DNA of 64,000 bases from Paramacrobiotus metropolitanus (Eukaryota > Tardigrada > Eutardigrada > Parachela > Macrobiotidae): assembly GCF_019649055.1 (NCBI RefSeq), contig NW_026570339.1, positions 62,001 through 126,000 on the forward strand. The letters run 5' to 3'. The position numbers and the translations under genes are program-made. Every line of letters starts with the position of its first letter. The first letter of the stretch is position 1. This document shows positions 3,418-62,786 of the stretch, piece after piece. The notes beneath the pieces are model-generated. The model did no database searches and was not told the origin of the DNA. It saw nothing but the letters and a program-made list of their open reading frames with translations.

Positions 3418-3477
3418 GAGTCAGAGAAGAAACTTCTGTCAGATCTTTTTTCCAGATTCGAAGCCGCAGGAAAAAGT

Positions 3478-6169: not shown

Positions 6170-9100
6170 AAATTTTTGACCCTTACCAGCTGGCGGGTTC
6201 CACGTGGCAAGGGTTGGGTGTGGTTAACAAAGTTTTATTTAACCACAGCAAACAGCCAGTCTTACAAAACATCACTATTACAAATTCTACAAACTCAACT
6301 ACAGTTTCTACAAATTCGCCGTGAATGCAAGCCGAGGCCGGAGGCCGAGGGTTGCCTTGTAAAGACAATTTCTACTCCGCCGTTTTTTTCCCCAACATCT
6401 CCTCCTACACCGTTCGACGTAGATTTTTCCACGATAGCTTAAAAAACGTCTAAATTCCTGTAGGGTGGCAAGACGGTTTTCGTTTATCGTTATTTTCGCT
6501 TTCAAATTTACGAAACTTTTTCGGAACGAATTTCGCCTATTGGCTGAATCAGAAAGTACTAACGGCGAATAGGTGGAATCTGTTATTATGGCGGGAAGAA
6601 TAACTATGGCAACACCGACAGTACGGAATACCAACACATTAGGGACTTATCTAATTGCGGCTGGCATCAGTTACCTCACGACCTCATTATCCGAAAATAA
6701 GGCCTTTGTTTACGGCTACGGCAAAATACATGCGGCACATGCAGAAAATGGGTCAGATGTTGTGTACTACGGTGCGCGCAATACACACGTACGTAACCAG
6801 GACATTGGCAGGAAAATCTAAAATTCCTTATTATTGGAAAGTACTGTTGCAGTGATAACGATGGGCGGAAACAATTAACACAATGAGAATCCGACATGTT
6901 CAGATTGTACAAGTATTTTTGCATTTGTACAAGTATCTTTGTATTTTACAAGTATCTTTGTATTCGAAAATACACAAAAAAACATTACGGAAATTTTGCC
7001 CAAAAACCTTTAGCAATTCAAATAATAGCTAACGATAATAAAAAAAATAATAAATTTACGAAATTGAAGCAAAGGCCTGCATTTCCACATGAAATTAATG
7101 AAATTGTACATACACTACATCGTACGTACATCGTACATTCAAAAATACACAAAAAAACCTTACGGAAATTTCGCCCAAAAACCTTTACCAGTTTAAATTA
7201 TAGCTAATGATAATAAAAAAAATAATGAATTTACAAAAATGCAGCATTAAAAGATAGCTTTTATAAGAGCGATCTGATACAATTCGAAAATGCACAAAAA
7301 TGTCCTTACGGAAGTTTCGCCCATAAACATTCAGTAGTTTAAATTATAGCTATCGATTACAAAAAAATCTTCTAAATAAGCAAGCAATTCCTGTTTCTTG
7401 ATAACTTCTGAGAACATTACGTCTGCTAGGCAATCTGGCGTACTGATATTTCGGCAGATTAATTAGTATCCTTGCTAATGCGGCACAGGAAACACAAAAT
7501 TTTCGGCAAAACTTTAGGTCATGCCGAGTTGTTCGTATGCCGAAAGAGGAGTACGGCAAGAATTTTTAAAAAGGTCACATCTGCAATTTTTAGTACACTT
7601 ACTTTACAATTTTCCATTAAATTAGCGGAACATAAGTAACGGCAATACGGAAACAACAAAATTACTGCACAAATTTGATAAACACCAGCGTTAAATCTGT
7701 TAAGTTTAGGCAACATAAATATCTTAGTTAATGTATTTATATCGCCGAAAAGAACCGTTTTGTGGCCAACACTCGGTAGCCTTAACCCAACGCCGAAATT
7801 AAGAAAATATGTTTCGAACATCGTTTTCGTTTTGTTTTCAAGAACTAGCTAATGTTCTTGAGATTATGACTTTTCTAGATTAAGCGGTAGGAAAGAAGTG
7901 TTCGCCAAACTGTACCAGTACTTTCACTAGGCAGTCATTATCTGTTTGCGCAAATGTACTATAGTAGTTGATAATCCAAAATTGTTGTGTTCGTAAAAAT
8001 AATACAAATTCAAACAAAAAATGTTCCAGCCAAAATAAATAAACGTTCATTTTTTGCAACAAAAGTAATTACGACGGCTGCGGTAAACATAGTTTATCCG
8101 GTACTTTTAAGATTGATTTTGTTTTTAAATATTTTAGATACTTTTTCGCTAGAAGTATTTAATATTTTGTTTTCCACAGTTTCTAGAAATTCTTTAATTT
8201 TCTTCTTTCTACAGTTTCTACAAGTTCTACGTTTTGCAAGCCGAGGCCGGAGGCCGAGGATTGCCTTGTTATAAAGACAATTCCTCACTCCGCCGTTTTT
8301 TTTCCCAACATCTCCTCCTACACCGTTCGACGTAGATTTTTCGACAATAGCTTAAAAAGCGTCTAAATTCCCGTAGGGTGGCAAGACGGTTTTCGTTTAT
8401 CGCTATTTTCGCTTCCAAATTTACGAAACTTTTTCGGAACGAATTTCGCTTATTGGCTGAATCAGAAAGTACTAACGGCGAATAGGCGGAAGTTATTATT
8501 GCGGAAAGAATAAGTAACAATGGCAACACCTACGGTACGGAATACCAACACATTAGGGACTTTTAGATTTCACCACGTTGCTAACCGTAAGACGCTTACA
8601 GGTTACGTTCGTATATATACCTTGACCGTAGTACACAACCTCCCGCCCGAAAACCTCTTCCCAAGATAGGCGTAACTTATCTAATTGCGCCTGACCTCGG
8701 TTCTCTCACGATCTTATTATCCGCAAGATAAGGCCTTTGTTTACGGCTATGGCAAAATACATGCGGGATATGCATAAAATAGGTCAGACGTTGTGTACTA
8801 CGGTCCGCGCAATACACACGTACATAACCAGGACGTAGGATGGAAAATCTAAAGTTTCGCCCAAATACGTTTAATAGTTTAAATTATAGCTATCGATGAC
8901 AAAAAAATCATTTATTTGACATTTAAATACGCAAACAATTGCTGTTTCTCGATGATTTTTGAAAACATTGCGTCTGCTAGACAATCTGGCATATGAGTAT
9001 TTCGGCAGAGTAACTGGTTTCTTAACTGATGAAGCAACAGAAACATATAGTTTTCGGCAAAACTTTAGGCCATGCTGCGTTATTCATATGCCGAAAGAGG

Positions 9101-14349: not shown

Positions 14350-14995
14350 ATTAGCAGGAATTTTTGCCTGTTAAACCGAGAGTTATAGATTTTCGCCGGC
14401 CAGACAGAGGGGGAGGGTGCCTCACCAGTTTGACAAATCAGAAGGGATTTTCGCCGGTTAGACGGAGAGGGAGGGAATTTCGCCGGTCAGACACAGGGGT
14501 AGGGATTTTCGCCAGTTAGACAGAGGGATAGGGTTTTCGCCGGTCAGACACAAGGGTAGGGGTTTCCTTCGGTTAGACAAAAGGATAGGGATTTTCGCCG
14601 GATAGACGGAGAGGGAGAATTTCGCTGGTCAGACACAGGGGTAGGGATTTTCGCCGGATAGACGGAGAGGGAGGGATTTTCACCGGTTAGACAGAGGAGT
14701 AGGGTTTTCCGCCGGTCAGACACAAGGATAGGGGATTTTTGTCGGATAGACGGAGAGGGAGGGAATTTCGCCGGTCAGACAGAGGGAGGGATTTTCACCG
14801 GTTAGACAGAGGACTAGGGTTTTCCGCCTGTCAGACACAGGGGTAGGGATTTTCGCCGGATAGACGGAGAGGGAGGGATTTTCGGCGGTCAGACACAGGG
14901 GCAAGGATTTGCGCCGGTTAGACAGAGGAGTAGGGGTTTCCGCCGGTCAAACACAAGGGTAGGGTTTTCGCCGGTTAGACAGAGAAGTAGTAGTT
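14350..14995. repeat. Minisatellite block B (about 30 bp unit)
   Basis: About 20 direct copies of a unit GATTTTCGCCGGTTAGACAG plus AGGGGTAGG with alternating variants: one with GTCAGACACAGGGG and one with GATAGACGGAGAGGG. The variants alternate, giving a higher-order period of two to three units. The block is followed by a tail (TCATCATATTCCAATAAATT) that recurs after block D at 18686. Confidence 0.88.
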
Positions 14996-15789: not shown

Positions 15790-16380
15790 GGTGTTCTTGC
15801 CGGTGAGACGGAGGGGAAGGGATTTTCGCCGGTCAGGTAGAAGTACAGGCATTTTCGCCGGTCAGATAGAATTACAGAGATTTTCGCCGGTCAGATAGAA
15901 GTACAGGGATTTTCGGCGGTCAGATAAAAGTACAGATATTTTCGCCGGTCAGATAGAAGTACAGAGATTTTCGCCGGCCAGATCTAAGTACAGGGATTTT
16001 CGCCGGTCTGATAGAAGTACAGGGATTTTCGCCGGTCAGATAGAAGTACAGGGATTTTCGCCGGTCAGATAGAAATACAGAGATTTTCGCCGGTCACATA
16101 GAAGTACAGAGATTTTCGCCGGTCAGATAGAAGTACAGGGATTTTCGCCGGTCTGATGAAAGTACAGGGATTTTCGCCGGTCTGATGAAAGTACAGCGAT
16201 TTTCGCCGGTCAGATAGAAGTATGTACAGGGATTTTCGCCGGTCACATAGAAGTACAGGGATTTTCGCCTGTTAGAACACAGGGGCATGGATTTTTGCCG
16301 GTTAGACAGAGAGGATGGGATTTCCGACGGTTAGACGGAGGTGTAAGGATTTTCGCCGATCTTACAAAAAATGGAATTTT
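15790..16380. repeat. Minisatellite block C (homogeneous 30-bp variant)
   Basis: About 18 direct copies of a 30-bp variant with core GATTTTCGCCGGTCAGATAG followed by AAGTACAGG. Within this block the AGATAGAAGTACAG variant is nearly fixed, whereas blocks A, B and D carry AGACA(C/G)AGGGG. The last two or three units revert to the AGACAGAG type. This is array-specific homogenisation. Confidence 0.9.
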
Positions 16381-16985: not shown

Positions 16986-17880
16986 GTCACGCAGTGCAAC
17001 AACGCAGTGTAATATGGGACAGGAGCTCTCATTTTGATAAACACAGAGATGCGGAAAGCCGTAGCTTACAAATGTTAGTATTCAGTACACAAATAACAGT
17101 GTAACAAGTAATCATTGTTTCAGACGGGAATTTTGCCATTCTGGTAATTTTGTAAAATAAAGCCAATTCGGCAAAAGAAAATTTTTGCATGCGGACAAAG
17201 CTGCATTAACTCATTTTTTTGGGGGGAAATTTCTGCATTTAGGAGGAATTTAATAATAATGAAACGATTTAAAAACGATTTCTTCCGATTTAATTTAATT
17301 AAATTAATTTAATTTAATGTAGTTTGTCTCAACGACTTTTGTTATTCAATGATTTCTTCCGATTTAATTTAATTTAATTAATTCAATTTAATGTAGTTTG
17401 TCTCAACGACTTTTGTTTTGCAATCTTTTCGACCTCCGATTTACGAAACGCGTTCGAAACGAATTTCGCTGATTGGTTTACCTTTTATAAATTAAAAGCA
17501 GATTGGCGGAAAAGCGAAAATTTCAAACAAAAGCCGATGACTAACTACAAATCTAATTTCGCCGTTTTCTTCTCTTCCTCTCCCTCCTACACCGTTTGGT
17601 GCTGATTTTCGCACGATAGCATAAAAAACTCCTAAAATCATGTAGTTTGTTCCTATGACTGCGATTTTTCGATTTTATCGTCCTTCAAATTACGAAATAT
17701 GTTCAAAACGAAGCAATTAATTGAGGATTGCGGAAAAACGGAACTTTGCGGACTAACAACATACGGTGCATGAGCACTGTATTTAATTAATTTTAACGCC
17801 AACAGCACGACATAGTATTTATAAAACCGTGCTTCGAAATTAATATTGCGGAAGTACGAAAAATGCGAAAAACACAGACA
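16986..17880. repeat. Partial R1 copies and AT-rich spacer
   Basis: The spacer has a local duplication in which TTTAATGTAGTTTGTCTCAA occurs twice (about 17310 and 17390), followed by R1 bodies near 17400-17540 and 17550-17760. No coding potential is seen. Confidence 0.6.
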
Positions 17881-17884
17881 CAGA

Positions 17885-18690
17885 GTAGGGTTTTCGCCGG
17901 TCAGACAAAGGGATAGGGATTTTCGCGGGATAGACAGAGGGGTATGGGTTTCCGCCGGTCAGACACAAGGATAGGGATTTTTGCCGGATAGACAAAAAGG
18001 TAGAAATTTTCGCTGGTCAGACACAAGGGTAGGGATTTTCGCCGAATAAATGGAGAGGTAAGAAATTCCGCCGGTTAGACAGAGGGGTAGGGATTTTCGC
18101 CGGTCAGACACAGAGTAGGGTTTCCGCCGGTCAGACACAAGGGTAAGGGTTTTCGGCGGATAGACGGAGAGGTATAAAATTCCGTCGGTTAGACAGAGGG
18201 GTAGGGGTTTTCGCCGGTCAGACACAGTAGGGTTTTCGCCGGTCTGACAAAAGGGTAGGGATTTTCGCCGGATAGACAAAAAGGTAGAAATTTTCGCTGG
18301 TCAGACACAAGGGTAGGGATTTTCGCCGGATAAACGGAGAGGTAAAAAATTCCGCCGGTTAGACAGAGGGGTGTGGATTTTTGCCGGTCAGACACAGAGC
18401 AGGGTTTCCGCCAGTCAGACACAAGGATAAGGATTTTTGCCGGATAGACGGAGAGGTAGAAAATTCCGTCGGTTAGACAGAGGGGTAGAGATTTTCGCCG
18501 GTCAGACACAAGATTAGGGAATTTCGCCAGTTAGACAGAGGGGTAGTGGTTTTCGCCGGCCATACACGAGGGTAGGGATTTTCGCCGGTCAGACAAAGGG
18601 AAATGTGATTTTCGTCGGTTAGACCATTGCCGCTCTACATTAGTGCAGTCAGCACTAATGTAGAGCGGCAATGGTTAGACAGAGGGGCAG
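17885..18690. repeat. Minisatellite block D
   Basis: About 25 direct copies of the 29-31 bp unit (GATTTTCGCCGGTCAGACAC plus A-GGGTAGG and a GGATAGACGGAGAGGTA variant) arranged in a partial higher-order pattern. The block contains a foldback insertion at 18625-18672. It ends in the same TCATCATATTCC tail seen after block B, followed by the start of an R1 copy that is cut off near 18.8 kb, where the TBCEL duplicate begins. Confidence 0.88.
18617..18680. mobile_element. Tiny foldback insertion with 7-8 bp target duplication
   Basis: A near-perfect palindrome (arms 18623-18646 and 18652-18675, 5-base loop) sits inside a minisatellite unit. It is flanked by direct GGTTAGAC copies (18617-18624 and 18673-18680). 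Removing the palindrome and one flank restores a normal repeat unit, so this is a true insertion of about 48 bp with a 7-8 bp target-site duplication, a length typical of hAT- or P-like transposition. It has no coding capacity. Confidence 0.75.
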
Positions 18691-18972
18691 TAGCTCATCA
18701 TATTCCAATAAATTTTGCTAACATTAATTCCCTAATCATTATTAAAAATAATAATAATAAAACAGAAATCAATATTCAATCCTACATTGGGCTTGTATAT
18801 GCAAATATATATTAATAAAATAAAATAATATATATATTTCCGGGAAATTAATATTTATTTCCCGGCTCGCATTCCTTCCCTGTTTGGCTTTTTCGTGCCA
18901 CGGTTGCAGCGTATTCTGGATGATTAAATGGACTGCTGTTTGGATGGGGATTTTGATTGTGGTGTGTTGCAG

Positions 18973-20125
18973 TGTGGAGGAGCTGCATCTGAGTCTGAAC
19001 GAGTACGCGCCCTTCGCGAAAGCGGACAGTGAGAACGCAGCGCCTTCCAGTTGCCGGCATCCCGGCCTGAAGGAGCTGCACATCGACAGCAACCAGCTGG
19101 CCTCCTGGCGCGAGTTACTCCGCATCGGGCGCAACTTCCCCGGCCTGCAGACGCTCTTCGCCAGCCACAACCTTCTCAATGACCTCTAGTTATTCATTGA
19201 AAACAGACCGGAAGTCGTTAAATTAATAACAGAAAATTAAAGAAATAGAGTGTTATAATAATATGTAGTAATAATTATTATTACCTACATAGGATATGGA
19301 GGGAGAGGCGTTGCGGGACAGCCTCCCCGCGGTGAGCAAACTGCACCTCAGCCACACGGAATTATCCTCCTGGCCGGCGCTGGACCAGTTGCAGCACCTC
19401 CCCTCCTTGACGGACCTCCGTCTGTTGAACACGCCCCTCTGGACGGACTCCCCGCTGACCGGAAGTAGCCCGCCCTCTTCCCCCTCCAAATCCGCGCCCT
19501 TCTCCCCCACTTTGACCACCCGCCAGCACGTCCTGGCCCGTCTCCCCGCCTTATCCTCCCTCAACGGGACCCCCGTCGACGCGATGGAGCGGATGGACGC
19601 CGAGCGCGCCTTTCTGCGCCATTTCCACGGCGCCGACGTCCCGCCGCCCTGTCCGCGCTTCACCGAACTCCTGGGCCGCTACGGGCCGCTGGCGCCCCTC
19701 CTGGACGTGCAGTTGGGGGCGCCGGAGTACGTGGAGGTCGGGCTCAGCTACGGCAGTGTCCAGCGGCGGCCCTTCAAGGTGAAAACAGCAATAAAAGTTC
19801 GATAATTAATTTAAGTGGAATAAAAATGGTAATAATTCATTTAATTGAAATAAAAATCGTATTAATTCATTTAAATGAAATAAGAATGGTAATAATTCAT
19901 TTAACTGAAGTAAAATGTGAATAAATAGGTGAACGTGAAGCAGACGGTGGGGCAGTTGCGGCAGGAGCTGCAGAAGGGGGCGGGGATGCGCTGCCGGGTG
20001 TTCTACCTGGACGCGGTGCTGGCCGGCGTCGTCGGGATGGAGGAGATGCGCGGCGAGCGCCGGGCCGTGCACTCCTTCAACGTCCGCGACGGCAGCCCAA
20101 GTGAATCCGCGATAATCACGACGTC
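18973..20125 (+). pseudogene. TBCEL: Truncated TBCEL duplicate
   Basis: This copy contains counterparts of exons 4-6 of the TBCEL gene at 41.3-45.0 kb, with introns retained, so it is a DNA-level duplicate and not a retrocopy. Exon 4 (18973-19188) encodes leucine-rich repeats. Its donor has mutated: CTCCAG|GTATGC of the parent is CTCTAGTTATTC here, creating a stop. Exon 5 (19293-19778) is fully open and in frame. Exon 6 (from 19929) has the ubiquitin-like domain but lost 16 bases near 20092, removing the normal RDGDEIILQPK end. Exons 1-3 are absent. The 5' breakpoint is near 18.84 kb, at the edge of an R1 repeat. Confidence 0.85.
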
Positions 20126-20130
20126 GCTGC

Positions 20131-20849
20131 CGTGGATAATCACGGGATTTTGGCCTTTTGTGTTGTGCGCGGAATTAACCGGTTGATCGGTGGAAATTTT
20201 GCGCTAATTTGTTTTGTTTTTCCCCCGCTGTTTGATTGATAAATCGACAAGTGTTTTGTTGTAGATAAATCAGAATCAAATCATGTTTCTTGACCTTATC
20301 ATCCGCTGTGCTTCCGTTTTCGCTTGACAGAAAGTAGTCGAAATAAAAAAAACATTTCTCTCATATTTATTTGCATGTTCTCGGTTAAGTCAGGAAAAAT
20401 AGACAGCAAATAATGAACCAAAACAATACAGTACTACCAAAAAACAGCAATAATTAATACTAGCAAAGAGCGGAAAATAATACTTACTAAAAATAAAGTC
20501 ATCAAAAACAAATTAAAACAGATCCGCCAATGTGCAACGAGAAAGTAATCAAATATATACTTCAGCATTGCAGAAACTCTACAGTTATTATTATAGCTGT
20601 CGGCAATAAATGATTTCAGTTGTGAGTGAGTGGTAACTCAGTCCGCACAAAGGAAAAAGCTATTGAAATAAATGTTTGTTTATGTATTTTCATAGTGCCG
20701 ATAATAATATTACCGATGATGATTTCAAATGATAATCCTTATTCGTTCAGTCCTGGCCAGTAGATATGGGAATTTTGCTATATTAAATCTTGCACAACAA
20801 CTGCTAGCCGTAACTACAGATACCGATCCTCATTTATCAAAAAAAAAAA
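20131..20849. other. AT-rich intergenic stretch
   Basis: The first 110 bp still match the 3' flank of the TBCEL gene (compare 45047-45150), so the duplication extends to about 20.25 kb. The rest is AT-rich sequence without recognisable coding or repeat features. Confidence 0.6.
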
Positions 20850-21814: not shown

Positions 21815-23460
21815 TAATGCGAGTAATTATTCGCAGTTAATTAACGAGTAATTATTTCGCAGTTAATTAACGCGTAATTATTGCAATTGATTAACGAGTA
21901 ATTATTTCGCAAATAATTAACGAGTAATTATTTCCCAATTTATTAACGAGTAATGATTTCCCAATTAATTAACGAGTAATTATTTCCCAGTTAATTAACG
22001 AGTATTTATTTCGCAGTTGATTAACGAGTAATTATTGCAATTCATTAACGAGTAATTATTTCCCAATTTATTAACGAGTAATGATTTCCCAATTAATTAA
22101 CGAGTAATTATTTCCCAGTTAATTAACGAGTATTTATTTCGCAGTTGATTAACGAGTAATTATTGCAATTCATTAACGAGTAATTATTTCCCAATTTATT
22201 AACGAGTAATGATTTCCCAATTAATTAACGAGTAATTATTTCCCAGTTAATTAACGAGTATTTATTTCGCAATTGATTAACGAGTAATTATTGCAATTTA
22301 TTAACGAGTAATTATTTCCAATTTATTAACGACTAATGAGTTCGCAATTAATTAACGAGTAATTATTTCGCTATGAATTAACGAGTAATTATTTGGCAGC
22401 TTATTAACGAGTAATTATTTCGCAGTAATTTAACGAGTAATTATTTCCCAATTTATTAACGAATAATTATTTCGCAATTGATTAACGAGTAATTATTTCC
22501 CAACTTATTAACGAGTAATTATTTCGCAAGTTATTAACGAGTAATTTTTCGCAATAAATTAACGAGTAATTATTTCGCAGTTAATTAACGAGTAATTATT
22601 TCGCAATTAATTAACGAGTAATTATTTCGCAGATTATCAACGAGTAATTATTTCGCAGTAATTTAACGAGTAATTATTCGCAGTTAATTAACGCGTAATT
22701 ATTTCGCAATTAATTAACGCGTAATTATTGCAATTGATTAACGAGTAATTATTTCGCTATGAATTAACGAGTAATTATTTGGCAGCTTATTAACGAGTAA
22801 TTATTTCGCAGTAATTTAACGAGTAATTATTTCCCAATTTATTAACGAATAATTATTTCGCAATTGATTAACGAGTAATTATTTCCCAACTTATTAACGA
22901 GTAATTATTTCGCAAGTTATTAACGAGTAATTTTTCGCAATAAATTAACGAGTAATTATTTCGCAGTTAATTAACGAGTAATTATTTCGCAATTAATTAA
23001 CGAGTAATTATTTCGCAGATTATCAACGAGTAATTATTTCGCAGTAATTTAACGAGTAATTATTCGCAGTTAATTAACGCGTAATTATTTCGCAATTAAT
23101 TAACGCGTAATTATTGCAATTGATTAACGAGTAATTATTTCGCAAATAATTAACGAGTAATTATTCCGCTATTAATTAACGAGTAATTATTTGGCAGCTT
23201 ATTAACGAGTAATTATTTCGCAGTAATTTAACGAGTAATTATTTCGCAGTTAATTAACGAGTAATTATTTCGCAATTAATTAACGCGGATTTATTGCAAT
23301 TTATTAACGACTAATGAGTTCGCAATTCATTCATGAGTAATTATTTCGCAGATTATTAACGAGTAATTATTTCGCAATTAACGAGTAATTACGGTATTTC
23401 GCAGTTTATTAACGACCTAACAATTTATGTATTAACGAATTTTTTCACAGTTAATTTACC
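21815..23460. repeat. Satellite array of 26-bp monomers with higher-order structure
   Basis: About 62 tandem copies of an AT-rich monomer built on AATTAACGAGTAATTATTTCGC (26 bp, with 24-25 bp variants). Higher-order periods are visible. The variant GAGTATTTATTTCGCAG recurs at 22001, 22129 and 22257 (128 bp, five monomers). The CTATGAATTAACGAG/TTGGCAGC pair recurs at 22371 and 22757 (386 bp, fifteen monomers) and, with one extra monomer, near 23169. The array lies between two copies of a duplicated segment (about 21.2-21.83 and 23.8-24.27 kb). Confidence 0.95.
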
Positions 23461-41325: not shown

Positions 41326-44300
41326 ATGCAGAGCGCGGACATAATGGAGGAAAATCGCGATGACTGCCAGGAAGTGACGTTCCTGTCGGCGCTGCAGCAC
41401 AAATATTCCGATGAGGATTACCGGGTGCTGTTTGCTGGACTGCTCTGTCAGGAGCGCGAGCGCGAGCGCCAGCGCCAGCAGCAGCAACAGGAACAGGAAA
41501 ATCAGCCGTATTCATCAGGTGCAGTAATACGTGCACACCACTGAATGTACACTGATTATGTAATAGCTATACTATTATTACTATTTTTTTTACATTTTAC
41601 TCAATTCTAGTCACTTTTATTGCTCTAGATCTGGATTAATTTTGTTGTACCGGTAGGTAAATTATTTATTGTAGAGAGAACTGAGTTGCTTGCAGCGGTA
41701 ATTCCCATTCCAAAATTAAATTATACTGTTAAACAGCTTTTAGACGGTGATTATCGCTTCCAGCGGTTCATGATTAAATGGAATTTTAATTTCCTAAAAT
41801 TCTGGGTTATATGGGAATCACTTTGGACCGTGTGTGGCCCATTTCGTTTCGTTTCCGGTTGAAGTATGATTTTATTGATTATGCTCGTATTTTGTCGGTA
41901 ATAAATGTGTATTAAATCGACACTGATTAGGTATGCATGGCATCGTTTGGAATTAAATCGCTGCTGCGGGATGAATGGTACGATCTGCATAATCGTGTTG
42001 TTCCGCGTGAGCAGCAGTCAGCAGCGAATTAATACGATATCGTTTTATCCGATTTACTGTTCACCGTATCGAACAGAATAGATATTTTTATTGAATGGGC
42101 AGCATTTTTCCTTGGCGTGATGAATGCATTGCGTGGCCTCCTGCGGCGAGCAGCCGCCTGTAGAAAAAGCAGCGCGGTAGCGTGGGGAAAAAACAGCTGA
42201 CTGGGCAGTCGATCGGGCAGTGTGCGCGATCGGATGGAATAATAAGCGGCTGCAGTATAGAATTTTTGCGCTGAACAGAGCAGGTTTCTTGTGCTATTTT
42301 TGCCATCTGATAGCGCCAGTTTTAATGCAGCTGCAGCAATAAAATAAAGCGCGTTCAGTTTCAAAATCAGTGCGCTAGTGCAGATTTGCCGTGTAGTGGC
42401 GGCGAATTAGACCGGAAACCACACGCCGCAGTACAGTGCGCGGAGTGATTTCGAAAGTGAAATGTTTCCGCAATGAGCAATAAATTCTCGGCTTGTTTTT
42501 ATGAAATATTATTAGCCTAAATTCCTAGTGTTTCCTGCGTTCTGATTTGTACAAATCAGTTTAGGAAGGATAAAAAAAGTTGAATTATTTGATAAAAAGA
42601 TGCTTAATTATGCTACAGAAATGAATATGACAGTAAAAAAAACAGTAATTCGGTCAACAATATTTGCTTATTAATAGATTAAATTTTAAATGCTTAATAA
42701 TAGTGAATATTTCTTAAATAATAGAAATAATAGCTTTACCAAATACCAATTAAATCAGAAAAATTCAGCAATATTTAAAGAAAAACACGACTGTAAAATG
42801 CACTTGAATTCTGATAAAAAAATGAAAATAATTGCAGGCGCCGGACGTGGTTTCGCGTGTCCCCCGTACGTCGTCCTGCAGAATTTCGGGATTAATCGTC
42901 TGGGCGGCGTGGAGGAATTATCGCGGTGTTGTGTGCACTTGCGGGAAATTGATCTCTCCTTCAATCGGCTGGGCAAATGGAGCGAGGTACACAGGCACTT
43001 GTCAACTGTAATCGATAACTCCCCGACCGACAATTACCGCTTTTGACCAGCATCGATTGCCACTGTTAAACGTATTTTCCCTAATGATTCTTAACGACAG
43101 ATTCGCCCGCTGCTGCACCACACGCACCACCTGGAGTCGCTGAATTTGAGCTTCAACCCGCTGGACGGACTGCAGGTGACCGACGTGCGGGGGGCGGGCG
43201 GGGAGGGGTGCCCCCTGTGCCCCCTGCAGGCCGCCAACTGCCGACACGATCCGCGTCCCACGCCGCCCGCCCTGCGCCGGCTGATCCTCAACGGCAGCCG
43301 CATCGAGGCGCGCGTGGCGCTGGCGCTGCTGGACTCGCTGCCGCAGTAAGTCGCTCGTTTTAATCACTTGTCCCCTCCTTGGCCCGGCTGCAGCGGGGAA
43401 GAATGCTGCCGTTGACAGTCGCGGCTGCTGGCGATTAACCTTTTAACCCGACACTCCACGCAGGGAATCTGTGTCAGCATCGATCCACGCATGTTTCCGC
43501 TGGCAATACAAATCCCACAGTCCGGCCGAGTCGTTAGCCGTAGTTTATCCTCTGCTAATCGATCAGCTGGCACGCTGCCGTCCGGCAGCGGATAGCTGAG
43601 CTTGATACAGAATTAGTAACAAATATCCTCTGGATTTTTTTCGATTGGGTGCAGAATATTTTAGATACATCTACTGTATGTGTTGGGATAATTTTTCGTG
43701 ACAATTTTAACTGTGAATTCCTACAAATAATTTCGGTTTCTTGACAAAATTTTGTTCTTTTTGTACAAACATACCGTACCCGAGGATTCGTGTTTACAAA
43801 GGCCACGACTTGCCGGCATTTATTTATTTGCTGGTTAGCGAAGTGACACAGACAACTATTCCATGCCATACTTGTACGGCACAGGTCAATCGTAATTTGC
43901 TTGATTAGTCGATTGGATGTGGTGAGAAGTGAGAATTGTGTGGTGTGTTTTAGCGTGGAGGAGTTGCACCTGAGTCTGAACGAGTACGCGTCCTTCGTGG
44001 ACGCGGACAGTGAGCGTGCTCCGCATTCCCGCCAGCATGCTCTGAAGGAGCTGCACATCGACAGCAACCAGCTGGCCTCCTGGCGCGAGTTACTCCGCAT
44101 CGGGCGCACCTTCCCCGGCCTGCAGACGCTCTTCGCCAGCCACAATCCCCTCAATGACCTCCAGGTATGCCCTTAGAAAAGACCGGAAGTCACCGAATAA
44201 TAAAAGAATTGAAGAAGAGTGTTATAATTAATAATCATTATTGTAGGATATGGAGACGGAGGCGTTGCGGGACAGCCTCCCCTCGGTGAGCAAACTGCAC

Positions 44301-45046
44301 CTCAACCACACGGAACTGTCCTCCTGGCCGGCGCTGGACCAGCTGCAGCACCTCCCCTCCTTGACGGACCTCCGTTTGTTGAACACGCCCCTCTGGACGG
44401 ACTCCCCGCTGACCGGAAGTAGCCCGCCCTCTTCCCCCCCTCCAAGTCCGCGCCTTTTTCCCCCACCTTAACCACCCGCCAGCACGTCCTGGCCCGTCTC
44501 CCCGCCTTATCCTCCCTCAACGGGACCCCCGTCGACGCGATGGAGCGGATGGACGCCGAGCGCGCCTTTCTGCGCCACTTCCACGGCGCCGACGTCCCGC
44601 CGCCCTGTCCGCGCTTCACCGAGCTTCTCGGGCGCTACGGGCCGCTGGCGCCCCTCCTGGACGTGCAGCTAGGGGCGCCGGAGTATGTGGAAGTCGGGCT
44701 GAGCTACGGGAGTGTCCAGCGACGACCCTTCAAGGTAAAAATAATAATCAAATTTCGATAACTAATTTAATTGAAATAAAAATCGTATTAATTCATTTAA
44801 ATGCAATAAAAATGGTAATAATTCATTTAACTGAAGTAAAATGTGAATAAATAGGTGAACGTGAAGCAGACGGTGGGGCAGTTGCGGCAGGAGCTGCAGA
44901 AGGTGGCGGGGATGCGGTGCCGCGTGTTCTACCTGGACGCGGTGCTGGCCGGCGTCGTCGGGATGGAGGAGATGCGCGGGGAGCGCCGGGCCGTGCACTC
45001 CTTCAACGTCCGCGACGGCGACGAGATTATTCTGCAGCCCAAATGA
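41326..45046 (+). CDS. TBCEL: Tubulin-specific chaperone cofactor E-like (TBCEL)
   Basis: TBCEL destabilises tubulin and lacks the CAP-Gly domain of TBCE. Six exons: 41326-41518 (start could be ATG 41344; TFLSALQHKYSDEDYRVL matches the family start, then a Gln/Glu/Arg run), 42838-42986 (PPYVVLQNFGINRLGG, LREIDLSFNRLGKW), 43101-43345 (LESLNLSFNPLDGL, LRRLILNGSRIEAR), 43954-44164 (VEELHLSLNEY, LKELHIDSNQLASWRELL), 44247-44734 (last repeats, LRLLNTPL, RQHVLARLPALSSLNGTPVD) and 44855-45046, the ubiquitin-like domain (NVKQTVGQLRQELQ, RAVHSFNVRDGDEIILQPK). Phases agree throughout, but exon 5 has two extra C in a 7-C run (44434-44440), shifting the frame. This is a recent mutation or a homopolymer assembly error. 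Confidence 0.9.
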
Positions 45047-46478
45047 ATCCGCGACGTCAACTGCCGTGGATAATCGCGGGATTTTGGCCTTTTGCGCTGT
45101 GTGCGGAATTAACCGGTTGATGGGTGGGAATTTTTGCGTTAATTTCAACCAGTGCCCGGTTTGTATTGTACAGATTGCAGTCATTTCTTCTGAGCAGTAT
45201 GTGGAGCTATTATAATCCGCTAGAAATAGAGCGCTTACTGTTTTGGCTCGGGATTGATTGATTTTGATTCTAATTGACCAGTGTCTTGTTAGATAAACGA
45301 GAATTTCTTTAGTTAAACTCAACTTTATTGCATTTTTGCCTGTTGCGCTACGGCAGTACTGTATGTCAAAATAAAAAAAGAAAACATAATTTATTTATAT
45401 TTGCAGCTTGTCCATTATGTCAAGAAAAATACAGCAAGAATTAAAATTAAAAAAATACAAGAGAAATCATTATAAAAAATTAATAAAGTTGATGAAGAAA
45501 AATAATAAAAAGGTGGATAAGTGAAGAAAAAATAAGGACTTAATTGTGATTTATAATTAGCCAACATTAGCGGTTAATAAACGCAGAGCACATGTCGCGG
45601 AATGCGCGGATGGTGGTGCTGGCAGTTGCTTCCTTCCGTCCGGACTCGGTAGCGACTAGCGAGTTGGTGTCGCTTCAAGTGTTTCTGTAATCGGAGCGCC
45701 GGCCACGGTGGCCAGTCCGGTGGAATACGCAACCGGAAAAACCGGTTGTGCACTGCGCTGTACGCTGCGCGTAAGTATTTAAAATTAGCCGTGGCCAGTG
45801 CCGCCGTTAGACCGGTCCGCCCACTCATCGATCAGCACAGGTACGATGTACACTGTACAGTATCAACTCACCTGTACGACGGCCGCTCGCAGTCGCAGCG
45901 CATACCGGAAAGGAAAGGTAAAGCCAGTCAGCGCCGTGAAAATATCGATTATGCGCGGCAAGCCATCTTTTTCCGGCATTGCCGTGGCGTGCCGTCACGA
46001 GGCTGTCGCTAAAGCATACGCTGCATAGCAGCCCCACTAGGGAAGCAGCCTCGTGACGCTAGTGGAGAGTTTCTGTCGTTAACCTTCACTGCATTGTATT
46101 GGCACACATTTGAACGTTGTGGTCTGGTTTACGTGCGTGCAGTTGCACTGCCAACTCGACTGATTTTTCTCTCACCATCACTCTGCTTTGAATTTGGAGA
46201 GTTGGTTGGCTTGAGAGATCGCGAAGACGGAAAGAAAGCGCTTTGTTATTACGAACGGTAACCACGTTTTTCTATATGTCCACGCGGTCGAATTCAACAC
46301 GGCCACCGGAAGTACAAGGCGAGCGGTTCTCACGCTGATTAATTTATTTGTCACGGATTTTCGTTATTCCTTTATGCGGAGAAGGAAGAGAATGTAGGAT
46401 CGATGTGGCGGCGCGGATGCAGATGATATTCATATACAGTTTTATATATATCAGTGGATTAAGTTATCTTTCAACTGC
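45047..46478. other. Intergenic region between TBCEL and the tetraspan gene
   Basis: The first 100 bp match the flank of the TBCEL pseudogene. A 12-bp inverted repeat (GTCACGAGGCTG with its complement) lies at about 45994-46055. A TATATA word lies near 46443, just before the start codon of the next gene. There are no other supported features. Confidence 0.5.
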
Positions 46479-55881: not shown

Positions 55882-57022
55882 CTATCTTCTGTCGAAGGCC
55901 ACCCTTCGGCGGGCGGTGGGTCGGAATTTGACTTCCGTCACGCCGGTGTCGATCAGTTCCGTCGCTCCGTAATCCGGTCGGCGTCGCTTGGTGGTGGTTG
56001 TCGTCGTGGTGGTGGTGGTGGTCTTGGGCGCCGGTTTGTAGCTGGGCGCCTCGGTGTCCTCTTCCTCCTTGAGCTCCGTCGAGTCCTGGGGGTAGGGCGC
56101 CGGCGTCCGGGCCCGCGGGGCGGTGGTGGCCGGGGCCGGGGTAGCTTTGGTGGTGACCCGTGGCTGATAAGGGGACTCGGTCTCCTCCGTCGTCTCCTCA
56201 ACGGGCGCCGGGGTGGTGCGGGCCCGCGGGGACGTCACCACCGGCGCGGGAGTGATGACCTTTGGCTTCTCCGTGGTCTCCTCGGTGCTCTCCTCGGGGT
56301 ACGACCGTGGCGTGGTATTCACCCGCTTCTGCGTCGTGGTGGTGGTGGTCCGGCGCGGCCCGTAGCTCTCCTCGTCGTCGTCGGTCTGGGCCTTGGGAGC
56401 GGGCGCGGGGCGGTAGTGGGTCTCCTCCTCGACGGTCTTGGTCAGCAGGACGACGTCGGACTTGGTCGGAGCGCCGTCAGCCGGCTCGATGTTGTTGCAG
56501 GCGTCGCCGCGGCACTGGTAGAAGGCCACGCCCACGTCCATCAGCGGCTCCGCCGACATAATGTCGCATTCGGAGCGGCCAAAGCCCCAACTGGAGACAC
56601 TCCCTGAGCAGCCCCGGTTGACGTTGACCTTTCCTGCATCCATCAGTTAATGAAGTGCGCGTTACGTTAATTAAAAACGCAGAAGCAGTGCACTCACCGT
56701 TCTTGAGGAAGACGAGGGCGTTACACCACGTGGCATCGTTGGGACACGTGATGATCTGCGCTTCCGACACCTTCCGGCAGAACTTCCCGGCGGCCTCGTT
56801 GGACAGACAGGAGAAGCATTGGATAGCCTGGCTGACTGTTTAAACATGGACCAGTCAATAAATATCCACACAAATGTCGATCTTCACACACAATACACAT
56901 ATACATATGCATAAGCCATATATCAAAGTTATATATAAAGGTCACCGTTATATATACGAAAATGTGCGCTCACCTTGGATTAATACTGATAGGAGCAGCG
57001 GCGAATAGACGAGATACTGCAT
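55882..57022 (-). CDS. Secreted Ly6/three-finger protein with mucin-like Thr-rich tail
   Basis: Three exons joined by phase 1 introns (57022-56974, 56835-56698, 56633-55882). Exon 1 is a signal peptide (MQYLVYSPLLLSVLIQ). The Ly6/uPAR fold follows: IQCFSCLSNEAAGKFC, CPNDATWCN, VNRGCSG, SEC and FYQCRGDACNNIEP. Nine cysteines are present where ten are usual. The tail of about 180 residues is rich in Thr, Pro and Glu (likely O-glycosylated) and ends in a poly-Thr run followed by KRRRPDYGATELIDTGVTE and AFDRR. That ending is shared with the unrelated protein at 61117-62786. No GPI-type hydrophobic end is present, so it is probably secreted. It faces the Ly6 gene at 59225. Confidence 0.85.
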
Positions 57023-59224
57023 CTTCGAATGAGATTAATACTGCGCCACGAAAATAATCCGACCCAATTTTGTATGAACAAGCTCGACGCTTCACATGCG
57101 AATGAAAAATAAGAATAATAAAATAATAAAGCAATTGTCGATCAGAATTGTTGTGCGCGGCGCGAAGAACAGAATGGCGGCAATGGAGCGTAAAAACGAT
57201 AAGAAGTGCGGAGCTGGTAGAATAATAAAATAATTGGACGAGTGAATGCTGTTTGCAATCTCAACGGAGAAGGAAAGTGTCGGTTAGTAATAGTACAGTA
57301 AACATGTCCATCGCCAGCGATGGCTCCGATTGATTCTCAGCTCTTCCGTTCTATTCTCTTTTCGTGGCCGGCGCGAAATGCTGCTCTTTGTAGGTTGATT
57401 GCAATTATGCGCTGATTGTATTGTGCAGAAATACTGGTTAGAAGAAATATTTTGGTGTTGTCGCGCTCGCTCCGTCGGCAATTTGCGGTCACGACACAAA
57501 TAGTTTCTTGATAAATCGGCCGGTACATATATTGTATCTGTATATATGTATAACGGCAATTGGCCAGTGGTGAGTAAGCACGGCGTACAGCTGTCGACTG
57601 GCCGTAAATGGGACAAAAGACGACAATTGCCGCCCGCGGATCGCATTGCTGCCGCTCGCCGTGCAGTCGTGTAGCATGGCCGTCGCAGTCGTGCGGATCC
57701 ACTTGACTGCGCCATCGGGAGCAGAGCTGGTCGCGGCAAATGAGGATTAAGCAGATGAGCGAACACAGCACGTGCCTCAGCGTATCTGTACAGACGGTAC
57801 GTTGCCTAACGTACAGATATAGCGCCGGCGCGCGGCGGGGCTGGTAATGCCCACAAGTACTTCCGGCGCGGATGCTGCTTTCTCTTATTAGACTGTGTTA
57901 TCTATCATATTGTACGTACGTACTACGTACAAGTATAACCGGCTTTAATCCGTAGAGCAGTAGGTAAGCAATGCCAGCACCAGGAAAGATTTTCCGCCCG
58001 ATACACAGTACGGACCGTCTACGAGGTCACTGACAATTTCGCTTTTGCACGCGCCGTTCCCGTATGCACACTTTCTGTTGCTGTTTCCTTTGTCGTTCTA
58101 CAATCAAAATGGTGCTATATTTCGGCATGAAAATCGTTTTTGGGGCACACCATCCGCTTGCTGAGATGCACAGTCGTGCGCCGAAAGTCGGCCGGTCCTG
58201 TAGAAACCCGCATCCGTGGGTCGGTCAGGTTCGCGGGGCCGTGCCAGCCAGGTGTACCAGATGGCGGATGCGGCTTTAACAGTGCATTTCCGCTAGCTCC
58301 GTGATCGTCTCATCAGGGCGTGAATGTGACCGTGTGGGCATGTAATCAACACCTATCACTCTGGTCGATCGCATAATATTATACAGCATCAGTTATACCG
58401 CTATACATATGCGTAAACGTCATCCATATTAACATTGCCCCGGTCCGGAGCCACTGCCGTGACCTTTGGAACCGGCTAGCTGGACTGTTCTCCTCGGCGA
58501 CTGTGAGCTGTCTGGCCGACTGGTCTTGCAAACGATGGCCATTTCCGTTCGCGCCGAATGCAGTGCTGTACCGGCCACGGAAACAACAGAAAGGTCACAG
58601 CTGGCGACCAGAACGCCAGTGCAGCGGAGCAGCGTTTGAGCAGAGCGCCGGTAGGCTCGGTTCGGCTGTGCAGCGGATATGGCAGCCGCCGGGGGCTGAC
58701 GTCCAAACCAGCATCCGCCAGCCATACAGATATACGTACATTCTATGATCTCTGATCTGTACGTACACATGAAAGGCAAACTAACGAGCAACGCTGCATT
58801 CGCAATTCGAGTCAGCAGTAACTGCTTCTGATCTTCATGGCAAGTGTCCGCGAGGCATCCCCGCTGCATTCCGTCTTCTACTCGGCGAATTTCACGTTGT
58901 TGAAGGCAAAGACGGTGCAACGTGCTGCAGCGGTACAACCTGTACAAGTACACGTTGCCGATAGAGCGAGTTGGCACACGCGCTGGCGCGGCTTCTCTAT
59001 GTTGCCGATGTGCATGTTGACAAGCTAATGCTTCTCAAGTGCAGTAGCCGGATATATGTAATTATTCATTCTTGGTATAGTAGGCAGAACATATATGTAC
59101 ATAATCGTATAGTACGTCAGCGCATCTGCATCGGATTCATTACGATCCCATCCGCGTCCTTCGACCTGCACTCCTCTTTTCCTGGCGCACTAGCCTTGCC
59201 TTCGAATTCGTCCAACGCCCCACA
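57023..59224. promoter_or_regulatory. Shared region between two divergent Ly6 genes
   Basis: This 2.2-kb interval separates the start codons of two head-to-head Ly6 genes and must hold the promoters of both. I cannot point to a clear TATA box or operator. Open frames here are short and not protein-like. Confidence 0.4.
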
Positions 59225-60683
59225 ATGTACTCCGCACGGAGTCTCGCCTGCGCACTGCTCGTCAGCTGCATAGGTAAGTACTTGTACTTGTGCTGCACGG
59301 TCACTTTAAATATTTATATACAGTTCATTTCCCATACCATCTATACTTCATATCCAATATAACTATATACATTGGTGTGAAAATTTTTACTGCTTTTTAT
59401 TTATGTTTGCTTAGCGACATAACAGTCAGTCATTCCACTACGGTCAGTATTGCACAATCAAGAATTAAAAACACAACCAAAATCATTTATGCGCGCAACA
59501 TCCGAGCGGGGAGATCTGCACAGACGGATGTGCGGCTCAATTCAATAACGGGCAAGGCACGAGTCAACCAAAACTCGCTAGCGCTCCCTAGCCTCGGACA
59601 TTTCTTCACCAATATTTATTATGAAAATTAGCGATATTTATTGTCAAATCAGTTCTAACATTAATTTTCTGATGGTAGCTGTGAAATTTCCAACGAAACG
59701 TCAAGGAAGAAACTCCTGTCTTACGTGCCTTTTATTGCAAAATATCTAGTTCGAAGAATAACCTGAACTTCGGAGCTCCATCGACGCTTAAAATTGTGCT
59801 GTCCATTTTAATTCGCCGTAATAATATTACCTCAGTAAGCGGAAGTCGCGCTCACTTGCACGCTGTTCACTGTCACGTATATGTGTATTGTACAGGGAAT
59901 ATTAGCGCGTATATACAGTAAAACTGATACGCGGTATCAGTAATTGCAATTTCTAATGGTTTGTCTGTTTTGCGCAGTGACGTGCGTGTTGATGCGGCAC
60001 GCGGCCGGTCTGCGGTGCTTCGTGTGCCTGCCGAACGTCTCCACCGGGCAGGACTGCCGCCAGATCAAGGACGCCCAGCCCAGCAACTGCTCCGACGACT
60101 CCAAGCACTGCGTCGCCGTCGTCCTCGGCAACGCCAAAGGTCAGGTCACTTAACTGCCTGCGCGGAATCACGCTTAACCGAACGAAGGCTCCATAATTAT
60201 TGTGCAAGTAACCGGCATATTTGCAAGCTGACTGCATGCGTTTGTGTATTGCAGGCGACATCACGGTGTACCGCGGTTGCGGCGGTCACGTGCAGGACTT
60301 TAATCTCGGCATCAACGAGTGCGCCATGCTCGACACCTGGTCGGACGATCTGCCCGCCGGTAACTAATTCAACAATTAATTCTACCTTGAGAAATCCTGT
60401 ACTGTATCTACGTACTTCTGTTACTGTAATTAGTGTAATATAGATATGATAACGCTAACACAATTATCTCCGCCGAATGTACGTATGGCTTCATGAAAAA
60501 ACATATGCGAGTCGTGGAGGTAATAAAAATAGACAATTCAGAAATGATTTCCGAATTAACTGCTTTGCAGCCTACTACAAGTGCAAGACGGACGCCTGCA
60601 ACAACATCGAGCCCATCACCAGCGAGGTCACCGAAGTGGTCAAGCTGCCCGCGCAGCCCGTCGCCGCCAACACGCCCAAGTAA
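59225..60683 (+). CDS. Secreted Ly6/three-finger protein
   Basis: Four exons with phase 1 introns: 59225-59273, 59978-60139, 60255-60359 and 60571-60683, giving about 142 residues. A signal peptide spans exons 1-2 (SLACALLVSCIVTCVL). The three-finger core reads LRCFVCLPNVSTGQDC, SNCSDDSKHC, VYRGCGG, INEC and AYYKCKTDACNNIEP. The ending ACNNIEP is identical to that of the neighbour at 55882-57022, and cysteine spacing is parallel, including the same missing tenth cysteine. The protein ends with TSEVTEVVKLPAQP and lacks both the Thr-rich tail and a GPI signal. The pair arose by an inverted duplication. Ly6 proteins bind extracellular partners such as receptors; the target here is unknown. Confidence 0.87.
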
Positions 60684-61031
60684 AACCGGCTCCGCTAATG
60701 TCCGCGGTGACCTTTACATTTAGCTCCATGTTCTGTTTGATTCATGCGAGTTACTGCGATCCGCTGCTGCGGAATGTTGTTATTAATGTAGCAGTTGTGC
60801 CAAGCTCATATAAGCGTTATATAAACAATTTATTTGGCAACATCACAACGATTTTGTTAATAATTTTCATAATACGCCATGCTGGCCGACAGCAGCCCAT
60901 CAAGAGCAATCACAAGCAAAAACTCAATACCGTCCGTTACGTCAACAGCATCGTCCAGTGACCAGCAAGCTGTCAAAATACTAATTAGCAGCCGTTTCTT
61001 GCGCAGTCAAGCGTTATACAAAACCAGAAAA

Positions 61032-61060
61032 AGCCGGCCGACCGGCACGGAAGGCCGGCT
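61032..61060. other. GC-rich stem-loop between convergent genes
   Basis: AGCCGGCC pairs perfectly with GGCCGGCT across a 13-base loop, in the 434-bp gap between the stop codons of the convergent genes at 59225-60683 and 61117-62786. It would lie in the 3' untranslated region of one or both. Confidence 0.4.
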
Positions 61061-61116
61061 CATATACTCATAAAAACAGGGAGAAAAGGAACGCAGGTCG
61101 TGAGAGTATCAAACGC

Positions 61117-62786
61117 TTATCGGCGGTCGAAGGCGGTCTTTCCGCGACGCGGTGGCCGGGTAATGACGGCGATCGGCTCGGTGACCTCGGTGTTAATCAG
61201 CTCGGTGCCGCCGTAGTCGGGGCGGCGCTTCTTGGTGGTGGTGGTCGTCGTCGTGGTCGTCGTGGTGGTGGTCGTGGTGGGCTTGGTCGTCTTCTTCGGA
61301 CCATAGGCGCCGCCCTCGTCCTCTCCGCCGGCTGCGGCACCGGCGTCGGCGTCAGCATCGGCCGCGGGAGCAGCCGCCTTCGGGGCGGGCTTAGCGGCGG
61401 GTTTGGGTTTAGCGGCGGCCTTGGGCGCTTCCGTCGTGCCTTCCTCCTCATCACCACCCTCATCACCACCCGCCGCCGGAGCCGGCGCGGCCGGGGCAGG
61501 CGCCTTGGGTTTGGCGGCGGCCGGTTTCTTGGTGGTGGCGGCATTGTCGCCCTCATCCTCACCGGCGCCTTCGTCATCCTTGGCCTCCTCCTTCTTGCTG
61601 GATGACGACGCGGATCCCGACGCCTTGGCGGATCCGGCGGCGCTGGCGCCCTTGGCTTTGGCGGGGACGGCGGCCTTGGCGCCTTCGCTGGACTCGGCCT
61701 GCAGGAGGTCCGTCTTCTGCTCGTCCTCGTCGTCGCTCTTCTCGGCGTCCTTGGCGGCGGGCTTCGCGGCCTTCTTCTCGCCTCCCAGACTGGTCAACAG
61801 CGTCGCCGAGGAGGACTTGGCGGATCCGGACACCTTGGCGCCGGCGCCAGCGGCTTTAGCGTCACCTCCGGCAGCCGGTTTCGTCTCCTCCTCCTCGCTG
61901 CCTTCCTCGGATTTGGCCGGAGCCGGGGCCTTCTCCGCCGATTTGGACGCCGTGGCTGAACTGACCTTGGCACCTCCGGCGGCCTTGGCAGCCTCGGTGG
62001 TGGCCTCATCTCCACCCTCATCACTGGCGGCCGTCGTCGCTTCGACCTTCTTCGCGCTGGACGCCGAAGCACTTCCGGATACGCTGGCGCCCTTCTTGGC
62101 TTCGACCTTAGCGGCGGGCTTGGCGGCTTCGGTGGTGGCCTCCTCATCGCCGCCCTCGTCGCTGGCGGCGGTGGTGGCTTCGGCCTTCTTGCCGCTGGAC
62201 GCGGAGTAACTTCCGGAAACGGTCTTCTTGGCTTCGACCTTGGCAGCGGGTTTGGCCGCCTCGGTGGTGGCTTCCTCGTCACCGGAATCCGCGGCGGCCG
62301 GCTTAGCCGCTGCCGTACCGGCGGACTTGGAGGCGGAGACGGCCGCGCCCTTGGCGGCACCCTTGGCCGCCTCGGTTGTGGCCTCCTCGCCGCCCTGGTC
62401 GGCGTCGGCGCCCGTGTTGTCCGCGGCCGCCGAGGATTTGGCCGCCTGGTTGCCGGACGCGGAGGCACTGCCGGAGACGCTGGCGCCGCCGCCCGCGGCG
62501 GACGTCTTCTTGGAGCTGGAGCCGGAGATCATCATGCTCTGCGCCGAGCACTGCGCCAGGCACTGGTCGCAGTCCACGTTGCCCGCCACGCTGCCTGCAA
62601 TAAAAAAAAATTCAATCAAAATAAAATACTCCCAGAAAAAGCCCGATTAATGCAAATAAAAAGGAAATTATTCCTGCTCATCGTTGATTGGCTGAATTTA
62701 ACAGGCGACGCTGCGCCGATTGGTCGGTTTATTTACATACCGTGGACGAGGTACAGGAAGACGGTGCTTAACGCGAGCAGCTTCAT
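61117..62786 (-). CDS. Long Ala/Lys/Glu-rich disordered secreted protein
   Basis: Two exons joined by a phase 1 intron (62786-62741 and 62594-61117), giving about 507 residues. Exon 1 is a signal peptide (MKLLALSTVFLYLVH). The mature start NVDCDQCLAQCSAQS has the only cysteines, which could cross-link chains. The body is low complexity and built of degenerate repeats of about 43 residues: EEATTEAAKPAAKVEAKK blocks alternate with SGSASASS-type serine blocks. The end is Asp/Gly/Pro-rich, then a 15-Thr run, KKRRPDYGGTELINTEVTE, and GKTAFDRR. Composition predicts a disordered, highly hydrated protein, such as a matrix, cuticle or stress-protective protein, but function is not shown. Long plus-strand frames here are antisense shadows. 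Confidence 0.85.

Follow-up and report, generated by a model that had tools for sequence, protein, structure and literature searches.

Within the 64,000-nucleotide (nt) stretch of Paramacrobiotus metropolitanus DNA analyzed here (the window), which is animal nuclear DNA as judged by its spliced genes, we modeled three genes between 55.8 and 62.8 kb: LyT and AlaT on the minus strand and, between them on the plus strand, LyP. LyT and AlaT end in the same short C-terminal tail, which is the subject of this work. All three models are hand-made predictions from the DNA, with signal peptides assigned by eye; on these models, the two minus-strand genes that an earlier note on this DNA had described could indeed be read, with GT-AG introns, at 55882–57022 (LyT) and 61117–62786 (AlaT). 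In each gene the signal-peptide exon is short (49 nt in LyT, 46 nt in AlaT and 49 nt in LyP) and ends in a phase-1 intron, and all six introns across the three models are phase 1.

LyT is a protein of 312 residues encoded by three exons. Exon 1 (56974–57022) encodes the signal peptide, exon 2 (56698–56835) the first half of a Ly6 (QVR) domain recognized by Pfam, and the 752-nt exon 3 (55882–56633) the remainder of the domain, a Thr/Pro/Glu-rich linker, the common tail and the stop codon. AlaT, with 507 residues and two exons, has its signal peptide in exon 1 (62741–62786), and its 1,478-nt exon 2 (61117–62594) runs from a CDQCLAQC start through an Ala-rich acidic body to the common tail and stop. 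The sequence TATATAAG lies 117 bases upstream of the AlaT ATG and would suit a strongly expressed gene. LyP, a QVR/Ly6 gene of 142 residues (59225–60683, plus strand; exons 59225–59273, 59978–60139, 60255–60359 and 60571–60683), contains neither RPDYG nor AFDRR.

The LyT protein ends in KRRRPDYGATELIDTGVTE followed, after a three-residue alignment gap, by VKFRPTARRRVAFDRR and the stop codon, and AlaT ends in KKRRPDYGGTELINTEVTEPIAVITRPPRRGKTAFDRR and stop. In both, a Thr run directly precedes the tail: 11 Thr in LyT (55990–56022) and 15 in AlaT (61234–61278). The tail itself spans 35 residues in LyT (KRRRPDYG...AFDRR, 55885–55989) and 38 in AlaT (KKRRPDYG...AFDRR, 61120–61233), with the consensus [RK]RRPDYG[AG]TELI[DN]T[GE]VTE...RP..R....AFDRR-stop. 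With the first Lys excluded, the alignment has 23 identities over 34 residues, the Tyr of RPDYG among them, and the net charge is +6 in LyT and +5 in AlaT. The BLOSUM62 local score of the two tails is 101, compared to a mean of 21.3 and a maximum of 52 in 20,000 shuffles, none of which reached 101. The earlier note had proposed a common ending made of a Thr run, a basic cluster, RPDYG-TELI-T-VTE and AFDRR, and this ending is borne out; its likeness also exceeds what Thr/Arg composition would give, a check that had been set beforehand. When LyT and AlaT were compared with the whole window by tblastn, each recovered the tail of the other (E values of 9e-8 and 5e-8). The next tail match, at 7639–7710 with an E value of 0.31, was taken as chance. 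A six-frame search of the window found RPDYG and AFDRR nowhere outside LyT and AlaT. A structure model computed from the two tail sequences suggested two strands, residues 19–28 (the Thr run and following Lys) and 35–45, with a predicted local distance difference test score (pLDDT) of 67.7 and a predicted template modeling score (pTM) of 0.22, which is too weak to use.

Of the 34 aligned tail codons, 9 are the same in both genes and 11 specify different residues; the other 14 differ only synonymously, so that 14 of the 23 conserved residues use alternative codons in the two genes. By the Nei–Gojobori method (NG86), the proportion of synonymous differences (pS) is 0.73, the synonymous rate (dS) is 2.59, a rough value as it is near saturation, and the nonsynonymous rate (dN) is 0.27; within the initial 18 codons it falls to 0.14, with dS beyond estimation. 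On this sequence evidence, the LyT and AlaT tails are homologous. Moreover, because dS is near saturation and dN is about 0.27, we read the tail as ancient and maintained by protein-level selection, with no recent copying. That two Thr/Arg-rich tails are merely alike in composition is hardly credible by comparison. The sequence before RPDYG is low-complexity in both proteins, and the flanking matches described below lie within or near the shuffle range, but neither the score of the segment after the Thr run nor its codon usage is compatible with such an origin, and chance is refuted for RPDYG...AFDRR.

Chance is possible, by contrast, for two further resemblances that the earlier note had drawn into the shared module. 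The element YGP(R/K)(R/K)TT is present in both proteins, but at different positions. In LyT, SYGPRR (YGPR at 56353–56364) starts at residue 152, 129 residues before RPDYG, and is followed by its own run of six Thr, with RPDYG starting at residue 281 after the separate 11-Thr run; in AlaT, AYGPKK (YGPK at 61294–61305) starts 28 residues before RPDYG. The YGP 7-mer is the top ungapped match outside the tail and is equaled in 78 of 1,000 shuffles. A gapped local alignment of LyT and AlaT without the tail scored 80, which 3 of 2,000 shuffles reached; we give it little weight, as it passes across low-complexity stretches whose character shuffles do not reproduce. The second resemblance is the SEVTEV near the end of LyP, where EPITSEVTEV directly adjoins the Ly6 domain. 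When the LyP end was shuffled, its score was reached in 1,044 of 20,000 cases against the LyT tail and in 415 of 20,000 against the AlaT tail, and both scores were reached at once in 82 of 50,000; when the tails were shuffled instead, the corresponding counts were 611 (LyT) and 60 (AlaT) of 20,000. The LyP end scores 29 against the rest of the LyT region following the Ly6 domain and 22 against the LyT tail. It is possible that the LyP end represents a short ancestral form of the tail.

We also looked for the tail elsewhere, in viral, prokaryote and plasmid collections and in the PDB, a range that is uninformative on animal genomes. Among viral contigs, 202 stretches matched the tail pattern and one was kept as a relative, with 60% identity over 25 residues and an E value of 5e-6 (a value that holds for candidates only). 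We rejected it as chance: it consists of the extreme end of a long open reading frame (ORF; 3266–4906) that we took by eye to encode a phage large terminase, the aligned segment includes ELID but closes with VVWSRR, the contig is 63.5% G+C with other long ORFs that look phage-like, and no other part of LyT, AlaT or LyP gives a convincing match there. Among prokaryote genome contigs, 88 stretches matched the pattern and none was a relative, and the LyT tail found no match in plasmids at E values up to 10. The single PDB match of the tail (E value of 1.4) was taken as chance. Literature searches for RPDYG returned, by title, papers on Epstein–Barr virus-specific T cells and nicotinic-receptor ligands; those for Ly6 with tardigrade returned nothing on this tail by title, and those for a conserved C-terminus with Ly6 found nothing.

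The folded part of the cluster belongs to LyT and LyP. Their Ly6 domains align with a score of 205, against a maximum of 58 in 5,000 shuffles, and both pass the cut-off of the Pfam QVR model (PF17064; 27.5 bits for LyT and 29.3 for LyP, cut-off 27.3). The general UPAR_LY6 model scored LyT at 18.1 bits, under its cut-off of 24.8, and did not list LyP. A PDB sequence search with LyT gave no match at E values up to 1; six matches to LyP (a dynein chain and NUDT15 entries; E values of 0.087 to 0.93) were taken as chance. Passing the QVR cut-off places both proteins with the Quiver/Sleepless-type LU-domain proteins, which the signal-peptide exon, phase-1 introns and gene clustering at this locus also resemble (PMC6600238, in the part available to us). 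Three features set them apart. Each has 9 domain cysteines (in LyP counted after the first 19 residues), compared to the ten expected for an LU domain, and one cysteine may be unpaired and free for cross-linking; the available part of PMC6600238 describes Ly6 members lacking a whole disulfide and does not mention an odd cysteine number. LyT carries an extension of ∼200 Thr/Pro/Glu-rich residues. Finally, by eye, no hydrophobic C-terminus suited to a glycosylphosphatidylinositol (GPI) anchor was seen in these proteins, whereas all 45 Drosophila Ly6 members are predicted to be GPI-anchored (PMC6600238, same part).

AlaT has a very different body. Ala accounts for 26% of the residues, alongside Lys, Ser, Gly, Thr and Glu; the body consists in part of repeats spaced 44 to 46 residues apart; and the mature protein, tail included, has a net charge of −11. 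A structure model of exon 2 gave a mean pLDDT of 40.1, with 455 of 491 residues below 50 and almost no structure, although single-sequence models are often poor. The body is probably disordered. The N-terminus bears some likeness to the neighboring genes: AlaT begins CDQCLA, LyT CFSCLS and LyP CFVCLP, so that CxxCL is common to all three. AlaT has only three cysteines (residues 24, 27 and 31), and all fall in the N-terminal 12 residues of a presumed mature protein of 488, a clustering with a probability of ∼1e-5 under random placement, although the limit of 12 was picked after seeing them. Their number is odd, and they could have a role of their own, for example in disulfide cross-linking. The earlier note called the two heads otherwise unrelated. 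This is doubtful: their N-terminal alignment is not significant, but all three genes have the short signal-peptide exon, the phase-1 intron and a CxxCL start in common. From these features and the N-terminal cysteines we read AlaT, with no more than moderate confidence, as what may be a Ly6 gene in decay, its core gone.

How the tail came to be on both proteins was attributed in the earlier note to exon-tail shuffling. The gene models do not support this proposal: the tail lies inside the last LyT exon, which also encodes half of the Ly6 domain, and inside the long second exon of AlaT, and neither model has an intron at its edge. Because the coding sequence in both models runs into the tail without a break, recombination in an edge intron could not have moved the tail alone. 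The tail could also have been copied from one gene onto an unrelated nearby secreted gene by ectopic recombination or gene conversion, which would leave two heads of separate origin on one tail. Clear protein similarity is indeed limited to the tail, with no significant N-terminal alignment, and such an event would need no intron. Nevertheless, we consider it unlikely: the tail edge carries no intron in either model, the two genes also agree in the length of the signal-peptide exon, in intron phase and in the CxxCL start, and the near-saturated synonymous sites leave room for an old transfer but rule out a recent one as well as conversion still under way.

The explanation that we favor, if tentatively, is that LyT, LyP and AlaT are a small Ly6 (Quiver-type) cluster that would have arisen by whole-gene duplication, and that the tail is a docking tag into one extracellular material. 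LyT would have retained the Ly6 domain, followed by a long Thr/Pro-rich linker and the conserved tail. AlaT, its sister gene, would have retained the signal-peptide exon, the phase-1 intron, the first Cys-x-x-Cys-Leu and the tail, with its Ly6 core swapped for an expanding Ala/Lys/Ser/Gly/Glu repeat. Duplication of whole genes with later replacement of the AlaT middle accounts for the gene structure no less well than tail shuffling does. Several observations weigh against it. A Pfam search with AlaT at E values up to 10 found no family and no recognizable Ly6 domain. Its N-terminal alignments reach scores that are matched by 1,151 of 5,000 shuffles with LyT and by 3,917 of 5,000 with LyP. The DNA flanking LyT and AlaT shares just 10- to 15-base matches, at the level of chance (E values of 0.87 or worse). 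LyT itself clears the QVR cut-off by just 0.2 bits and fails that of UPAR_LY6. Moreover, many secreted animal proteins have a phase-1 intron after the signal peptide, so that such an intron is weak evidence of kinship. It is, nonetheless, part of the typical layout of Ly6 genes, in which it follows a signal-peptide exon (PMC6600238, in the part available).

Because the common tail is real and constrained, the common role that the earlier note envisaged for it is a fair inference, but two of the roles it named, GPI anchoring and furin-like processing, find no support. The last 20 residues of LyT and AlaT are hydrophilic and basic by eye, and the LyP C-terminus likewise has no long hydrophobic stretch. 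The furin consensus, R-x-[KR]-R, is absent from LyT, AlaT and LyP, and a Pro directly follows the conserved basic cluster. O-glycosylation of the Thr runs, which the note also named, is plausible. A role for the tail as a secreted peptide or propeptide, freed at basic sites from a remainder that acts as carrier, appears very improbable on the same grounds. Both proteins do have a conserved basic cluster ahead of the tail and RR at the extreme end, but a Pro after such a cluster disfavors cleavage, the furin motif is missing, and each protein holds one copy of the tail. Less improbable, though still doubtful, is that the tail would act as a sorting or polyanion-binding signal, directing the proteins to secretory granules or to a sulfated or chitinous matrix independently of any joint assembly. 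The basic tails, the acidic AlaT body and the conserved Tyr of RPDYG are consistent with such a signal, but charge by itself is weak evidence.

For the docking tag that we favor, joint deposition in one extracellular material would be the simplest role. The products of LyT and AlaT would both be secreted; the Thr run would form an extended spacer, probably O-glycosylated; and the basic tail would serve as a common tag for docking or co-assembly, holding LyT as a binding head and AlaT as an acidic disordered filler together in a material such as a glue, a cuticle layer or mucus.

The rest of the window contains repeats, a mobile element and a duplication. A Helitron-like element occupies its left end (1882–5209; Helitron_like_N domain, E value of 4e-36), and ORFs downstream of this domain look by eye like Helitron helicase. 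Related 29-bp tandem arrays (AGGGATTTTCGCCGGTTAGACAGAG...) are spread over several kb (14356–14990, 15818–16276 and 17875–18624), and a satellite-like array of ∼61 copies of a 26-bp unit lies at 21820–23381. The segments at 18958–20210 and 43939–45145 are duplicates with 86% identity over 1,273 aligned bases; they encode a leucine-rich-repeat protein (Pfam LRR_4, E value of 0.0017, under the family cut-off) that we take to be TBCEL-like. No tRNA or Rfam matches were found in the window. CpG is over-represented across the whole window (observed/expected 1.25), which suggests a genome without much CpG methylation.

Known systems offer parallels to the arrangement of LyT and AlaT. The Sgs3, Sgs7 and Sgs8 genes of Drosophila melanogaster form a cluster in which the N- and C-terminal parts are shared, the signal peptide is interrupted by a phase-1 intron, and Sgs3 is the one member with internal repeats; glue proteins, moreover, may most often be retrievable only through their conserved C-terminal part (PMC6352337, in the portion available to us). 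The tight cluster, the phase-1 signal-peptide intron, the shared ends and the Thr-rich disordered repeats in one member are likenesses to the present genes, as far as the partial source goes. These glue genes appear to be the closest documented parallel in architecture. To our knowledge Sgs7 and Sgs8 are short Cys-rich proteins not known as Ly6 proteins, unlike LyT and LyP. Spidroin-type proteins similarly carry a conserved end on a repetitive disordered body, but the tail here is 35 to 38 residues long, basic, free of cysteine and has no confident fold.

It is conceivable, if uncertain, that RPDYGxTELIxTxVTE...AFDRR defines an undescribed family of secreted proteins with clustered genes, in which a basic C-terminal tag behind a Thr spacer would recruit different heads into the same extracellular material, here a Ly6 binding domain and a disordered body that would go back to a degenerate Ly6 gene. 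Should duplication be the correct reading, this locus would be a compact case in which a folded domain became a disordered matrix protein with a short tail held fixed, and its architecture would resemble that of the fly glue genes with the Ly6 fold as the starting point. The tail would then provide a handle for finding other proteins of the same secretion whose bodies outrun similarity searches.

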